Shown: positions 1 through 7,281 of the stretch, piece after piece
Layout: the number at the start of each line of letters is the position of its first letter
Numbering within the stretch: position 1 is the stretch's first letter
Assembly: GCA_943789425.1 (NCBI GenBank)
Contig: CALSUB010000002.1
Span: forward strand, 1-64,000
Direction: 5' to 3'
Source of the DNA: an uncultured Luminiphilus sp.
Lineage (GTDB): Bacteria; Pseudomonadota; Gammaproteobacteria; Pseudomonadales; Halieaceae
Length of the DNA stretch: 64,000 bases
Notes under the pieces: generated by a model
What the model was told of the DNA's origin: nothing
The model's database searches: none
The model's input: the letters and a program-made list of their open reading frames with translations, nothing else
Position numbers and translations under genes: made by a program

Positions 1-1150
1 AGTTGGCACACATTTAAAAATTAGCGTGTAAACTTCCACTAATGGAAATAACACTTGACCAAGCTTTGCAACAAGCTGTCGCCGCTCACAGGGAAGGAAA
101 TGCTCAGGAAGCTGAACGGTTATATCTGGCCATCTTGCAAGCACAACCTGACCACCCAGATGCGAACAATAATCTCGGTATATTAACGATAGGTCTCGGG
201 AAAACTGAAGCTGCTTTGCCACTCTTCAAGAAGGCGCTTGAGGCCAATCGTGATATCGAGCAGTTCTGGCTAAATTATATTGATTGCCTTATCAAACTAG
301 AACGTCTTGCCGATGCAGCTATAGCCTTAGCTGACGCGAAACATGCTGGCGTTGCCGCAGAAGAACTCACCTCCTTAGAAGAAGCGCTACTGCTAGCAAA
401 ACAAGGGAGCGGGTCATCCAAGAAAAAGCACGATACGGACCTAGATGCGCCACCTCAGGAACAAATAGACACTCTATTTTCACATTACCAATCTAACCAG
501 CTTGAAGCATTCGAGCAGCTTGCAATCTCAATGACAGAGACGTTCCCTGCACACCAGATTGGCTGGAAGGCCTTAGGGGTCGTATTGAAGCAAACAGGCC
601 GACTGAGTGAATCAGTTGCGCCTATGCAACGGTCTGTGGCGTTGTCACCTCAAGACCCCGAAGCCCACAGCAATCTGGGTGTTACGCTTCAAGAATTGGG
701 CAGATTAGATGAGGCGGAAGCCTGTTACCAGCAAGCGATAGCATTGCAGCCTGACCTTGCCGAGGCCCATTATAACTTGGGTAATACGCGCCACGAGTTA
801 GGTAGATCGGATGCGGCTACGGCAAGTTACCAGCAAGCAATAGCATTACAGCCTAACTACATCAAAGCTCACAGCAATCTGGGTAACGCCCTCCAAGAAC
901 TGGGCAGACTAGAAGAAGCCGAGGAAAGTTATCAGCAAGCAATAGCATTGCAACCTGACTTTGTTGAAGCCCATAGCAACCTAGGTAATACCCTCAAGGA
1001 ACTCGGACGATTAGACGAAGCAGAAGCCAGCTGCAGACAAGCGATCGCGTTGAAGCCTGATTATGCTGAGGCTCACTACAACCTGGGTGTTACGCTCAAG
1101 GAGCTCGGACGATTAGACGAAGCAGAAGCCAGTTATCGACAAGCGATAAC
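1..1150. repeat. Long direct repeat, copy 1 (with 2817..3966)
   Basis: The first 1088 bases match the block starting at 2817 (offset 2816) with no difference that I could find. After one G/A difference at 1089 the match continues to about 1150, then the copies diverge. The repeat covers 41 bases of 5' flank and the first ~370 codons of the TPR gene. Because the window starts inside it, its left end is unknown and it may extend further upstream. Confidence 0.93.
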
Positions 1151-1580
1151 GGTTCGTCCAAATTATACCAAAGCTCACCTCAATCTAGGTAACATGCTCA
1201 AAGAGCTAGGTAGACTAGAGGAGGCTGAAGTAAATTATCGACAGGCGGTAACGTTGGAGCCCAACTATGCAGAGGGCCATTACAATTTAGGGGTCACGCT
1301 CCAACAGTTAGGAAAATCAGATAAGGCTGTAGCAAGCTATCAACATGCGATCGCGCTAAAGCCTGAGTTCCCAGAGGCTTATTATAATTTAGGGAACGCA
1401 CACAAAAATCTCGGCGAACTAAGAGCAGCTGAGGAGAGATATAAACAAGCGATAGCGCTCAGTTCTGGTTATGCCGAGGCTCACTACAATTTGGGTAATA
1501 CACTCCTAGAGCTGGGTAGATTAGATGAGTCCAAAACAAGTTACCAGCAAGCAATAGCGTTACAACCCTCAATATGCTGA
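42..1580 (+). CDS. TPR-repeat protein, N-terminal part of a broken TPR-oxygenase gene (copy 1)
   Basis: A tetratricopeptide-repeat scaffold of 512 aa. Residues 1-100 hold two degenerate TPRs, then a charged linker (about 120-145, SGSSKKKHD) and a run of 34-residue repeats of the form AEAHYNLGxTLxELGRLDEAEASYxQAIALxP. TPR arrays bind protein partners; the partner is unknown. The ORF stops inside a TPR. Removing one base from the CCC at 1566-1568 and one T at 1593-1594 joins it in frame to the ORF at 1622, giving about 830 aa with an oxygenase domain at the end. I therefore read it as the front half of a frameshifted gene. No clear Shine-Dalgarno precedes the ATG at 42. Residues 1 to ~349 are identical to those of the ORF at 2858. 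Confidence 0.85.
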   Translation: MEITLDQALQQAVAAHREGNAQEAERLYLAILQAQPDHPDANNNLGILTIGLGKTEAALPLFKKALEANRDIEQFWLNYIDCLIKLERLADAAIALADAKHAGVAAEELTSLEEALLLAKQGSGSSKKKHDTDLDAPPQEQIDTLFSHYQSNQLEAFEQLAISMTETFPAHQIGWKALGVVLKQTGRLSESVAPMQRSVALSPQDPEAHSNLGVTLQELGRLDEAEACYQQAIALQPDLAEAHYNLGNTRHELGRSDAATASYQQAIALQPNYIKAHSNLGNALQELGRLEEAEESYQQAIALQPDFVEAHSNLGNTLKELGRLDEAEASCRQAIALKPDYAEAHYNLGVTLKELGRLDEAEASYRQAITVRPNYTKAHLNLGNMLKELGRLEEAEVNYRQAVTLEPNYAEGHYNLGVTLQQLGKSDKAVASYQHAIALKPEFPEAYYNLGNAHKNLGELRAAEERYKQAIALSSGYAEAHYNLGNTLLELGRLDESKTSYQQAIALQPSIC

Positions 1581-1621
1581 TGCCCACATAAATTCTGGGT
1601 GTAATTTTTAGAGAATTAGGC

Positions 1622-2542
1622 ATGCTAGCTGCGGCCGAAGCGAGTTATAAACTGGCACTAGCCTTAAAACCTAATTATGCAGAACTTCACAGAAAATTGG
1701 GTGACACGCTCTATGAGTTGGGTAAATTAGACGAGGCTGAAGCGAGCTGCAGACAGGCAATAGCATTAAAGCCTGACTTTTTTTTAGCCCGCCAAAGACT
1801 CTTACAGTGCCTATTTTTACAGGATAAGAAATCTAGCTTTTTTGAGCAATTAAATTATTTGATTAGTGAAGGTCAGACCAACGCGGTGACGGGATCCCTC
1901 GCTTGTCGCGCCGCACTGAAATACGGTGTCGAGATTGTTAATCCCTTTTGTATGCATCCTCTAGAGTATGTGTCGCATATAGATCTGACCTCCGAGTATG
2001 ATTTTGAGCGAGTTTTTGTCTCGCAAGCGATGTCCCTGCTTACGGGGAATATGCTTGCTGAAAGATCTCAGAATCTGCTTATCAGTGGCAAGCAGACCTC
2101 TGGGAACTTATTCGAATTACAAAATGAGGCCCTTAAGGAGGTAGAAGCAATTATTCGAAAAGAGATAGATAAATACAGGCTTGAACTTAAAGACAGCACA
2201 GAAGGATTTATGACGCAATGGCCATCGGAATACACCCTTAAAGGCTGGCTAATTAGCATGAAGAGTGGCGGAAGATTGAAGCCACATATCCACAACGGGG
2301 GATGGCTGAGTGGCAGCATTTACATAAATGTTCCCCCAAAGTCAGCGGCGAACAGTGGCAATCTGAATGTCTCTCTAGGAGAAGATAAGGATGTTACTGA
2401 TATTCATCTAAATACAGGAGAAACAATAAACGTAAAAACAGGAAGCTTGGTTTTATTTCCCTCATCTCTGACACATCACACCACCCCGTTTCAATCTGAA
2501 CAAGAGCGCATCGTCTTAGCATTCGATGTCAAAGTAAAATAA
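1622..2542 (+). CDS. Two TPRs plus putative 2OG-Fe(II) oxygenase (PF13759-like), C-terminal part of copy 1
   Basis: This 306 aa ORF continues the protein started at 42. Residues 1-60 are two TPRs, residues 60-190 a less conserved linker region, and residues 195-306 a jelly-roll domain. Visible motifs are LKPHIHNGGWLSGSIYINVP, with the presumed iron-binding histidines, and GSLVLFPSSLTHHTTP followed by RIVLAFDV. These fit the putative 2OG-Fe(II) oxygenase family PF13759; substrate unknown. The ATG at 1622 lies inside a TPR and has no evident ribosome binding site, so separate translation is doubtful. Two single-base insertions just upstream (near 1567 and 1594) separate it from the TPR platform. 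The domain is unrelated to the oxygenase behind copy 2. Confidence 0.8.
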   Translation: MLAAAEASYKLALALKPNYAELHRKLGDTLYELGKLDEAEASCRQAIALKPDFFLARQRLLQCLFLQDKKSSFFEQLNYLISEGQTNAVTGSLACRAALKYGVEIVNPFCMHPLEYVSHIDLTSEYDFERVFVSQAMSLLTGNMLAERSQNLLISGKQTSGNLFELQNEALKEVEAIIRKEIDKYRLELKDSTEGFMTQWPSEYTLKGWLISMKSGGRLKPHIHNGGWLSGSIYINVPPKSAANSGNLNVSLGEDKDVTDIHLNTGETINVKTGSLVLFPSSLTHHTTPFQSEQERIVLAFDVKVK

Positions 2543-2857
2543 TGCCACTGACCAAAGCGGCATTCAGGTGAAGGGAAGTAACTCTGCTCGAGGGCTATAA
2601 ACTTAATTTTCCCACATCAACAATCTTGCGCTGGAGAGGAGGAAATCAAGAAAATATGAACGTCTTATAGCGAATTGATTTTCCATCGGGAAATAAATCT
2701 TTCTTGAAGTTGCAGTTCAGTTTCGTCAACCCACTCGACGCACTTGGATACCATAATAGAGGCGCCTCTAGGCGGCCTGCGCTTTAAAAACGCCCTCGCT
2801 ATCTACTGATTCCGTCAGTTGGCACACATTTAAAAATTAGCGTGTAAACTTCCACTA
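2543..2857. other. Spacer between the two TPR-oxygenase genes
   Basis: This 315 bp stretch has no credible gene. Just after the stop, AATGCC and GGCATT can form a 6-bp stem (about 2545-2566) but no T-run follows, so it is at best a weak terminator. The last 41 bases (2817-2857) are the 5' flank shared with the start of the window. The left edge of that repeat falls within CTGATTCCGTCAGTTGGC; no insertion-sequence end or target-site duplication is visible. Confidence 0.5.
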
Positions 2858-3966
2858 ATGGAAATAACACTTGACCAAGCTTTGCAACAAGCTGTCGCCG
2901 CTCACAGGGAAGGAAATGCTCAGGAAGCTGAACGGTTATATCTGGCCATCTTGCAAGCACAACCTGACCACCCAGATGCGAACAATAATCTCGGTATATT
3001 AACGATAGGTCTCGGGAAAACTGAAGCTGCTTTGCCACTCTTCAAGAAGGCGCTTGAGGCCAATCGTGATATCGAGCAGTTCTGGCTAAATTATATTGAT
3101 TGCCTTATCAAACTAGAACGTCTTGCCGATGCAGCTATAGCCTTAGCTGACGCGAAACATGCTGGCGTTGCCGCAGAAGAACTCACCTCCTTAGAAGAAG
3201 CGCTACTGCTAGCAAAACAAGGGAGCGGGTCATCCAAGAAAAAGCACGATACGGACCTAGATGCGCCACCTCAGGAACAAATAGACACTCTATTTTCACA
3301 TTACCAATCTAACCAGCTTGAAGCATTCGAGCAGCTTGCAATCTCAATGACAGAGACGTTCCCTGCACACCAGATTGGCTGGAAGGCCTTAGGGGTCGTA
3401 TTGAAGCAAACAGGCCGACTGAGTGAATCAGTTGCGCCTATGCAACGGTCTGTGGCGTTGTCACCTCAAGACCCCGAAGCCCACAGCAATCTGGGTGTTA
3501 CGCTTCAAGAATTGGGCAGATTAGATGAGGCGGAAGCCTGTTACCAGCAAGCGATAGCATTGCAGCCTGACCTTGCCGAGGCCCATTATAACTTGGGTAA
3601 TACGCGCCACGAGTTAGGTAGATCGGATGCGGCTACGGCAAGTTACCAGCAAGCAATAGCATTACAGCCTAACTACATCAAAGCTCACAGCAATCTGGGT
3701 AACGCCCTCCAAGAACTGGGCAGACTAGAAGAAGCCGAGGAAAGTTATCAGCAAGCAATAGCATTGCAACCTGACTTTGTTGAAGCCCATAGCAACCTAG
3801 GTAATACCCTCAAGGAACTCGGACGATTAGACGAAGCAGAAGCCAGCTGCAGACAAGCGATCGCGTTGAAGCCTGATTATGCTGAGGCTCACTACAACCT
3901 GGGTATTACGCTCAAGGAGCTCGGACGATTAGACGAAGCAGAAGCCAGTTATCGACAAGCGATAAC
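2817..3966. repeat. Long direct repeat, copy 2 (with 1..1150)
   Basis: Second copy of the ~1.15 kb direct repeat. Identity is complete to 3904 as far as I can read, with one substitution at 3905 and divergence near 3967. Identity at third codon positions over a kilobase means recent duplication or gene conversion. The internal 102-bp TPR units add shorter homologies that could serve further recombination. Confidence 0.93.
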
Positions 3967-4222
3967 ATTAAAGCCTGACTATGCCGAGGTCCATTATAAC
4001 TTGGGTAATACACTCCTAGAATTAGGCAGGTTAGATGAGGCAGACGCCAGTTATCGACAAGCGATAACGTTGAAGCCTGGCTATGCCGAAGCCCATATCA
4101 ATTTAGGTGAGGCATTAAAAAAGTTAGGCAAGCATGCGGAGGGGCTTAAGGAGCAGATTTTGGGAGGTGGAGTAATATCATTCCACTTTACAGAAGGTTT
4201 CTCAGTAAAACGTAAGGGATAG
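2858..4222 (+). CDS. TPR-repeat protein, N-terminal part of a broken TPR-oxygenase gene (copy 2)
   Basis: A 454 aa TPR scaffold whose first ~349 residues are identical to the ORF at 42. The two diverge within the TPR array, and this copy has fewer units (about 8 against about 12 in the reconstructed copy 1). After the last TPR comes a linker (GGGVISFHFTEGFSV) of the type that joins TPRs to a 2OG oxygenase in related proteins. A TAG at 4220-4222 ends the ORF. The same frame continues past it (LMPRMNLPAQNENPNFIR) up to a +1 shift near 4274, after which the oxygenase at 4254..4832 follows. I infer one ancestral fusion gene split by a nonsense codon and a frameshift. Confidence 0.85.
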   Translation: MEITLDQALQQAVAAHREGNAQEAERLYLAILQAQPDHPDANNNLGILTIGLGKTEAALPLFKKALEANRDIEQFWLNYIDCLIKLERLADAAIALADAKHAGVAAEELTSLEEALLLAKQGSGSSKKKHDTDLDAPPQEQIDTLFSHYQSNQLEAFEQLAISMTETFPAHQIGWKALGVVLKQTGRLSESVAPMQRSVALSPQDPEAHSNLGVTLQELGRLDEAEACYQQAIALQPDLAEAHYNLGNTRHELGRSDAATASYQQAIALQPNYIKAHSNLGNALQELGRLEEAEESYQQAIALQPDFVEAHSNLGNTLKELGRLDEAEASCRQAIALKPDYAEAHYNLGITLKELGRLDEAEASYRQAITLKPDYAEVHYNLGNTLLELGRLDEADASYRQAITLKPGYAEAHINLGEALKKLGKHAEGLKEQILGGGVISFHFTEGFSVKRKG

Positions 4223-4253
4223 CTTATGCCGAGAATGAATTTACCAGCCCAAA

Positions 4254-4832
4254 ATGAGAACCCAAATTTTATTCGGATCTTGGATGATCGAGCCCCTCAC
4301 TATATGTGATGAGCTCATTACTTACTTTGAAGATAATGAAAAGCAGCAGATGAAAGGGATCACTGGGCGTGGGGTGAATTTAGCCGTCAAAAATTCAGTC
4401 GACATAACGAAAGCTCCGAGTGAATTGCTTCTGCCGGGCAATGAAGTTTTTCGCCAGTATTTTGAATCATTATTTGTTTGCTATCAGGACTATGCAAATC
4501 AATGGCCTTTTCTACAGCTATTCGGCGAAGAACTGCATATTGGGAAATTCAACATACAGCGGTATCAAAGCGGGCAGCATTTCCAAAAAATTCATACTGA
4601 GCGATCAGGACTTCAAAACCTTCATCGGATTTTTGCATGGATGACATATTTAAATGATGTTGATAATTGTGATGGAGGATCAACTGTCTTTTCCCATTAC
4701 GACTTGGAGATACAGCCCAAGAAAGGATTAACCCTGATCTGGCCCGCAGAATGGACACACGCGCACAAGGGTAATCTGTTACGAGCACACTCAAAGTACA
4801 TTATTACTGGATGGATGCATTTCCCCTCGTGA
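4254..4832 (+). CDS. 2OG-Fe(II) oxygenase (prolyl-4-hydroxylase-like), C-terminal part of copy 2
   Basis: A 192 aa domain with the layout of 2OG-Fe(II) oxygenases of the PF13640 type. The segment QHFQKIHTERSGLQ carries a likely iron-binding His-x-Glu/Asp. DGGSTVFSHYD is the central strand, and LIWPAEWTHAHKGN supplies the distal histidine and cofactor region. Likely role is hydroxylation of a protein or small-molecule side chain; substrate unknown. The ATG at 4254 has no Shine-Dalgarno and gives odd first residues. The ATG at 4226 has AAGGGA six bases upstream but is in another frame and leads to a stop at 4309. Dropping C4274 restores NENPNFI-GSWMIEP, so the true start was most likely the upstream TPR gene. 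Confidence 0.78.
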   Translation: MRTQILFGSWMIEPLTICDELITYFEDNEKQQMKGITGRGVNLAVKNSVDITKAPSELLLPGNEVFRQYFESLFVCYQDYANQWPFLQLFGEELHIGKFNIQRYQSGQHFQKIHTERSGLQNLHRIFAWMTYLNDVDNCDGGSTVFSHYDLEIQPKKGLTLIWPAEWTHAHKGNLLRAHSKYIITGWMHFPS

Positions 4833-5925: not shown

Positions 5926-7281
5926 ATGAAAGTGCCAGCACCCACGCTCGATACATGGCCAGAACAAGCCATTCGGGGCGATCGTATTGTCGGATCACGC
6001 TACACCTCTCGGGACTTTATGGAGCAAGAGTGGGATGGCATGTGGACACGGGTGTGGTTGCTGTTGGGTCGCGAGGCTGAGATCCCTCAAGCCGGTGACT
6101 GGCAAATGGAGCCGGTGGGACGAGAAGAAATTTTAATGGTGCGTCAGCAAGACAGCACCATTAAGGCGTTTTATAACGTTTGTCAGCACCGCGGCAATCC
6201 GCTGGTCGATGACCCCAAGGGGAGCAACCCCCGTCGTTTCGTTTGTCGCTACCACAGCTGGGCCTTTTTACCCGATGGTGAGCTGCAGTTCGTTCCGGAC
6301 CGAGAAGATTTTCCTGAGGGAAACCCCTGTGGGAAACTGCGCTTAGCAGAACTTCGCTGCGAAACCTTCGCGGGTTTTATCTGGGTCAATATGGACCCTG
6401 ACTGCCAACCCCTCCGGAACTTCCTTGGACCCATTTGGGATGAGTGGAACGCCAGAGAAGTCGCCAACTGGCAGCGCACGATGGCCAATACGACATGGCT
6501 GCCCTGTAACTGGAAGGCCGTACTGGATAATTTTAATGAGTCCTATCACGTGCCCACCGTCCACATGGGTGCAACCCCGTCAACCGACCGCACTGCTATT
6601 GCCGGCGGTATCAATACCTACTTCAAAGAAACGCGTTTCGACCTCGCTGACGAGGGACATGCGCGCATGGTGATGAAGGGGGGGTACGGAGCTGGCGTCA
6701 CGGACGCCGAGGGAAAAATAGCAGAGCCCCTTGCGTCACTGCTCGCCTATTGGTCCCTCGACCCAGATCACTTCACAGGCAGGCCCGATGACACCCGCGA
6801 GGCTTTGCAGGAAGCAAAACGATCACTAGGCCCTGAAAAAGGCTACACCCATTACAGTGCAGTCCCGGATGAACAGCTAACCGATGCCTTTCATTACACA
6901 ATTTTTCCAAATTTCGCAGTATCGCTCTGGGCCGATGGCTTTCACTTTTTACGGGCCCGACCGCACCCAAGCGACCCGGAACAGTGTTTGTTTGATAACT
7001 GGTGGTATGCCAGCCCCGCCAGCATTCAAGCCGAACTGGACGACGGCATGAGTGCCACGGATTCACTCATCGGCGACGGTCAGGGCGATGCGCCGGTAAA
7101 GTGGCTCAATCTGGACGAAGAGTCCATCGGCCCTGCCATTGAAGATGATGTGGCCGTGCTGGTGACCCAACAGCGCGGTGTACGCTCAAGAGGATTCACA
7201 GGCGCCTACTTATCGGGCCAAGAGAAGCGCATTAGCCGCTACCATGAGCGCATTGATGACTATATTGCGGGCAATCTGTGA
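5926..7281 (+). CDS. Rieske non-heme iron ring-hydroxylating oxygenase, alpha subunit
   Basis: Catalytic subunit of an aromatic-ring-hydroxylating or demethylating oxygenase, 451 aa from the ATG at 5926. I chose this over 5878 because GAGGGAG stands just upstream. The Rieske [2Fe-2S] ligands are visible as NVCQHRGNP and FVCRYHSWAF (Cys-x-His, then Cys-x2-His) around residues 80-105. The mononuclear iron site appears as DNFNESYHVPTVH near residue 205, with a third carboxylate expected in the C-terminal third. Such enzymes need a ferredoxin and reductase; neither is nearby, so electrons must come from elsewhere. The next gene, 20 bases downstream, is an NTF2-fold protein that may be its small subunit. 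The substrate cannot be told. Confidence 0.88.
   Translation: MKVPAPTLDTWPEQAIRGDRIVGSRYTSRDFMEQEWDGMWTRVWLLLGREAEIPQAGDWQMEPVGREEILMVRQQDSTIKAFYNVCQHRGNPLVDDPKGSNPRRFVCRYHSWAFLPDGELQFVPDREDFPEGNPCGKLRLAELRCETFAGFIWVNMDPDCQPLRNFLGPIWDEWNAREVANWQRTMANTTWLPCNWKAVLDNFNESYHVPTVHMGATPSTDRTAIAGGINTYFKETRFDLADEGHARMVMKGGYGAGVTDAEGKIAEPLASLLAYWSLDPDHFTGRPDDTREALQEAKRSLGPEKGYTHYSAVPDEQLTDAFHYTIFPNFAVSLWADGFHFLRARPHPSDPEQCLFDNWWYASPASIQAELDDGMSATDSLIGDGQGDAPVKWLNLDEESIGPAIEDDVAVLVTQQRGVRSRGFTGAYLSGQEKRISRYHERIDDYIAGNL

Follow-up and report, generated by a model that had tools for sequence, protein, structure and literature searches.

Proteins in which a TPR array is fused to a single modifying enzyme are already known, with AspH and OGT as examples. 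AspH carries a TPR solenoid N-terminal to a 2OG oxygenase domain, as does the first of the two genes described here, and gives the best solved-structure matches of that gene's head with its two TPR units. However, AspH belongs to PF05118 whereas the head of our gene is a PF13759 domain with an HxH motif, the TM-score is low (0.39), and the EGF-like substrates of AspH have no known counterpart here. Proteins of the OGT/SPINDLY type (TPR-GT41) also modify proteins on a TPR scaffold, and distant carriers of the N-terminal module described below have GT41 heads, although the genes of our locus carry oxygenases instead. Prolyl 4-hydroxylases (P4Hs), including viral vCPH, Pseudomonas P4H and PHD2, resemble the second oxygenase of the locus in fold, in the HxE...H...K residues, and in PDB sequence and fold matches; the latter differs in having HxE for the usual HxD and in being encoded in trans, behind a gene for a TPR protein with a C-terminal tail. 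Cassette systems that keep one front and vary the 3' end, e.g. polymorphic toxins, are also known. Our family shares with these one common front, varied C-terminal enzymes and a break inside repeats, but the resemblance is in working only: in the loci read, no toxin or immunity gene and no silent 3'-end array were identified, and exchange appears slow.

We describe genes with a common N-terminal module (N-module), a TPR array and diverse catalytic heads, in which head type conflicts with the N-module tree and genes have been replaced at loci with shared flanks. The window analyzed covers the opening 64 kb of contig C2 in a 1.70-Mb, 18-contig assembly that is about 80% complete. We hold with moderate confidence that it contains one recent event in a family of TPR-scaffolded enzymes with a patchy distribution, the 5' halves of which have occasionally recombined. 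The enzymes are probably protein-modifying. Features of the locus are given in Table 1.

Table 1. Features of the two TPR genes and their oxygenases (positions in the window)
Feature	Position	Strand	Description
Tract copy 1	1..1150	+	41 bp leader, N-module, first TPR units; starts at contig edge
Copy 1 TPR ORF	42..1580	+	512 aa; N-module (aa 1-202) and TPR array; ORF ended by frame break
Two apparent one-base insertions	1566..1594	+	shift from TPR frame to oxygenase-head frame
Last two TPR units and PF13759 2OG-oxygenase head	1622..2542	+	head is ORF residues 209-302; HxH...H...R kept
Tract copy 2	2817..3966	+	near-identical to 1..1150
Copy 2 TPR protein	2858..4222	+	454 aa, complete ORF, no enzyme domain
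C-terminal tail GGGVISFHFTEGFSVKRKG	4163..4219	+	motif GxGV[IV]xFxxxxG, common to G034a and G052 TPR proteins
P4H-like 2OG oxygenase gene	4254..4832	+	PF13640; HxE...H...K; frame differs from copy 2 ORF

The original prediction was of one TPR platform bearing two different, exchangeable 2OG oxygenase heads, with copy 1 ending in a PF13759-like domain. The family assignment of copy 1 was borne out, since the stretch KPHIHNGGW...SSLTHH matches PF13759 (2OG-FeII_Oxy_5) at 1.2e-20, with 74.2 bits against a curated cut-off of 27. Its putative metal- and 2OG-binding residues (H222, H224, H285 and R296) are invariant across 14 sequences. An AlphaFold model of 1622-2542 has a mean pLDDT of 91.5, and Foldseek placed this model closest to AspH oxygenase with its TPRs, followed by P4H and PHD2. 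PF05118 is absent from the Pfam matches of copy 1, which is thus not assigned to the AspH family. In PF13759 heads, here and in relatives, HxH takes the place of the HxD/E found in most 2OG oxygenases. The continuity of TPR array and head did not hold. The two lie in different frames, split by apparent insertions at about 1566-1568 and 1593-1594, with the TPR consensus picking up again across both. As assembled, copy 1 is a broken fusion and not a single ORF. We consider the frame breaks local because a gene cluster on contig C3 of the same genome has intact ORFs; sequence error or decay could be the cause.

Copy 2 had been expected to end in a P4H-like domain, which proved incorrect. Its protein has the same front as copy 1 and a few differing TPR units, then runs into the tail and ends ...KEQILGGGVISFHFTEGFSVKRKG, with the stop directly after GGGVISFHFTEGFSVKRKG; the P4H is a separate ORF. 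Copy 2 is a two-gene module and not a fusion, and TPR and P4H ORFs are likewise separate in G034a and G052. The HTERSGLQ...EWTHAHKG stretch matches PF13640 (2e-11, 45.1 bits, cut-off 27), such that an HMM search places the two oxygenases in different families, as predicted, with remote likeness only (hhalign probability 35%). Among solved structures the P4H ORF matches a PDB P4H (E 1.9e-7), and its model (pLDDT 78.6) has vCPH, Pseudomonas P4H and PHD2 as predicted fold matches. Its N-terminus extends upstream in another frame (MPRMNLPAQNENPNFI) and matches how the G034a and G052 genes, both intact, begin, which indicates one more frame break, a third apparent one-base insertion at about 4273-4276 that cuts the P4H start. 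The true start is probably at about 4226, in that other frame.

A tail-bearing TPR gene with a P4H gene directly after it was found in three genomes, as copy 2 of the window, as G034a (locus L045; stop at 5968, P4H start at 5972) and in G052 (L128), where the two genes overlap at 1165-1190. The three P4Hs are 53-74% identical. The G052 TPR protein falls outside the N-module subgroup of the window. P4H homologues in other families (28-43% identity) had no TPR-tail neighbor in the loci read. This linkage, drawn from three cases, suggests that the tail recruits the P4H or is its target, acting as docking site or substrate. L128 (G052:C96:528-2980) also has a PF13759 gene ahead of the TPR-tail and P4H genes, in the same order as the window.

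The claim of a shared platform is confirmed by direct comparison. Positions 1-1150 and 2817-3966 differ by a single mismatch, at base 1089 (V/I), a likeness far above chance level. Past the end of the tract, identity between the copies drops to background: the next two or so units remain in TPR register (50-72%), and what follows is unrelated. The break lies inside a TPR unit, where YRQAIT is followed by VRPNY in one copy and by LKPDY in the other, in agreement with the predicted recombination in repeats; at family level, exchange has been only occasional. The near-identical pair was found in one genome only, other within-genome pairs reaching at most about 88% DNA identity over short pieces, and a search of the window's own assembly gave two tract copies and no third. 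We favor, as part of the overall explanation, one recent gene conversion or unequal crossover between the window genes. A transfer from the PF13759 gene to its P4H neighbor is modestly favored by the N-module tree and by the identity residuals given below.

The 202-aa N-module was used as query against 147 relatives. Strong matches were restricted to a handful of same-genus relatives, namely G028 with about ten genes, G034 with four, G032 with two, and G001 and G024. Weaker matches in many other relatives were ordinary TPR proteins, and the two groups stand well apart (E 1e-29 to 1e-63 in the genus versus about 1e-4). The module aligns end to end in 13 sequences, including a non-TPR linker region, with invariant non-consensus positions. 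Sulfotransferase heads (PF13469, by Pfam) occur in G028 b, c, f, g, h and j and in G001; SAM methyltransferase heads in G028 a, d and e, G034 b and G032 b; and PF13759 heads in G028 i and k and G032 a, both G032 assignments being by similarity. Among strong members from same-genus relatives, G034 a has the tail and P4H gene. Farther afield, a Methylobacter member has a GT41 head. An N-module profile found members in 12 of 399 genomes of a phylum sample (11 of 398 when our own is set aside), and nine of ten such loci examined had GT41 and one a sulfotransferase. A class-wide survey of 369 genomes with the profile gave no member besides our own genome. We saw nothing to suggest that phages or plasmids spread the family, as phages gave one weak partial match and plasmids weak TPR-level matches only.

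Head exchangeability was upheld in part. At least four head types occur in one genus and head type departs from the N-module tree, but copy 2 is not a fusion and heads are not freely exchanged. On a maximum-likelihood tree of N-modules (22 rows, some of them only half as long, and many branches weak), head type changed 8 times, against a minimum of 3 and a mean of 9.6 for shuffled labels; 33 of 200 shuffles were as low, and head type thus clusters no more than shuffled labels. The N-modules of our genome and G032 fall together in a clade (support 96/94) that combines PF13759, P4H-tail and methyltransferase genes. An AU test, covering the methyltransferase (p=0.0004), sulfotransferase (p=0.0025) and PF13759 (p=0.001) heads and leaving out P4H with its two rows, rejected a single clade for each. 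Two loci of G034 and G028 have flanking genes in common (dS 0.09-0.67, 80-97% identity). At the first, the TPR genes diverge with a dS of about 1.4-1.5; at the second, a single methyltransferase gene in one genome corresponds to a four-gene array in the other, half of it with sulfotransferase and half with methyltransferase heads. The survey of related loci thus gave the anticipated result of one N-module with varied heads, and neither a fixed pairing nor a single family for both heads was found. Joining of the same front to differing ends in related genomes is as in cassette-type systems. In the loci read, which were not exhaustive, no store of silent ends or dedicated recombination mechanism was seen.

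Within head classes, identity of the N-module is correlated with that of the head (r=0.83 over 32 pairs), and this co-divergence indicates that exchange is only occasional. Identical scaffolds had been predicted to imply a shared binding partner, which is hypothetical; in relatives, paralogues with different heads have N-modules just 25-78% identical. Apart from the one near-identical pair at a contig end, the signs are of old exchanges only. Our P4H and that of G034a are 73-74% identical while their N-modules are 53% identical, placing this pair 10 points (1.7 SD) under the trend of other pairs, which is suggestive of a replaced copy 2 front. On these comparisons, pairing appears to be not fixed but sticky, with slow exchange. 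In G028, genes a, b and d have 70-bp leaders with 81-91% identity despite methyltransferase and sulfotransferase heads and an a-b N-module dS of 1.23, and there is no resemblance between G028 and G034 leaders. We weigh the G028 likeness lightly because the leader is partly a dispersed repeat. This intergenic element of about 51 bp (core GGTTGGACTTGATGGGGTGTTGAAGGTGTAAAGTA) occurs in G028, G034 and G024 (L132-L142), with several copies directly before G028 N-module genes and others away from the N-module family. An ARAGORN scan of eight element loci found no tRNA. No Rfam family was matched, and with copies away from the family a promoter or tRNA reading was set aside in favor of a dispersed repeat.

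Position 1 of the window is the first base of C2 and lies within the repeat, and copy 1 is thus at a contig end. Since an identical tract at a contig end is a natural assembly stop and also a natural misjoin site, copy 1 may be misassembled. A mis-extended end would have joined the 5' half of copy 2 to the PF13759 gene, and no near-identical front would then be common to both genes. We think this unlikely but take it seriously, given that the contig begins within the repeat, no other contig has a piece of the tract, and frame breaks cluster here while the C3 ORFs are intact. On the other hand, real repeats also end contigs at the repeat boundary, the join is in frame and in TPR register, and the tree places the copy 1 N-module with the module of the PF13759 gene from G032, where a genuine copy 1 should fall; head exchange at family level is independent of the window pair.

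The frame breaks in the window also bear on simple tandem duplication with decay, in which one copy gained the downstream oxygenase, both genes are pseudogenes and no recurrent exchange took place. Plain duplication fits poorly with one mismatch in 1150 bp ahead of unrelated parts and with the conflict between N-module tree and heads among genomes. G032 and G001 copies do have broken frames, although those of G032 look assembly-wide in a genome that appears error-rich throughout. The methyltransferase-headed G034b has a true-looking nonsense codon (TAT to TAG) in its TPR array (L047:5587-5640). However, the reading frames of the G028 copies are open over 543-906 aa, and dN is far below dS in N-modules and P4H (dN/dS well below 1), indicating that the relatives are or were functional. 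We regard this history as quite improbable. Still less credible, and very improbable, is generic TPR similarity, with arrays spreading independently before unrelated enzymes and the N-module a mere TPR consensus; TPR families span most of the protein and weak matches to many unrelated TPR proteins do occur, but the end-to-end alignment through the non-TPR linker and the gap in E values argue against it.

We propose that this TPR-scaffolded family, with its occasional recombination, works as follows. Each member has the conserved N-module, a TPR solenoid most likely binding the target protein or its carrier, and a catalytic part. The latter is fused C-terminally (PF13759 oxygenase, sulfotransferase, methyltransferase or GT41) or, alternatively, provided in trans as a next-gene P4H behind the short conserved tail. 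The fused enzyme or tail-recruited neighbor would then modify the TPR-held partner, as AspH and OGT do. In the window, gene conversion or unequal crossover would have equalized the leader, N-module and first TPR units, with the PF13759 gene as putative donor and the tail/P4H neighbor as recipient, and over the longer term such exchanges would have broken the link between the N-module tree and head type.

A more ambitious and doubtful proposal is a re-heading system, in which recombination in leader, N-module and TPR array puts one recognition scaffold before different heads, and a headless version recruits a trans prolyl hydroxylase via the conserved tail. One target class could then receive sulfotransferase, methyltransferase, oxygenase or glycosyltransferase modification, and the tail may itself be a P4H docking site or substrate. 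At issue is a set of paralogues in small genomes with one common N-terminal module and four or five enzyme chemistries, fronts and heads having recombined according to the trees. A limited literature search, with most subscription journals outside its scope, found no description of such a set. If correct, this would be a natural case in which post-translational modification is retargeted in a modular way, and it could supply recognition and catalytic parts that can be interchanged. The tail-then-P4H arrangement offers a concrete enzyme-substrate hypothesis.

The C3 cluster of our genome (L118, G000:C3:1-10641) encodes a TPR-PF05118 protein of AspH type, a P4H, TPR-PF13759 and TPR-sulfotransferase proteins, and a TonB-dependent receptor. 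Parts of it, with the receptor beside TPR-PF13759, recur in G028, G030, G006 and G024, and its gene content suggests a modifying-enzyme set around an outer-membrane receptor. TonB-receptor modification was rejected as the role of the window genes, as the cluster is a separate locus and its TPR proteins match the N-module profile weakly. Neighboring genes of the N-module family vary from locus to locus. In G001 (L050:2851-9001), the sulfotransferase-headed member, whose frame is broken, sits immediately ahead of a run of apparent flagellar rod/hook genes, as read from sequence. In G028 (L043:13898-17494), an RTX-repeat protein of >1,190 aa, its ORF running off the locus edge, lies beside three N-module genes and is a candidate substrate; L043 also encodes a glycosyltransferase and a small protein that matches no Pfam family and is possibly a methyltransferase.
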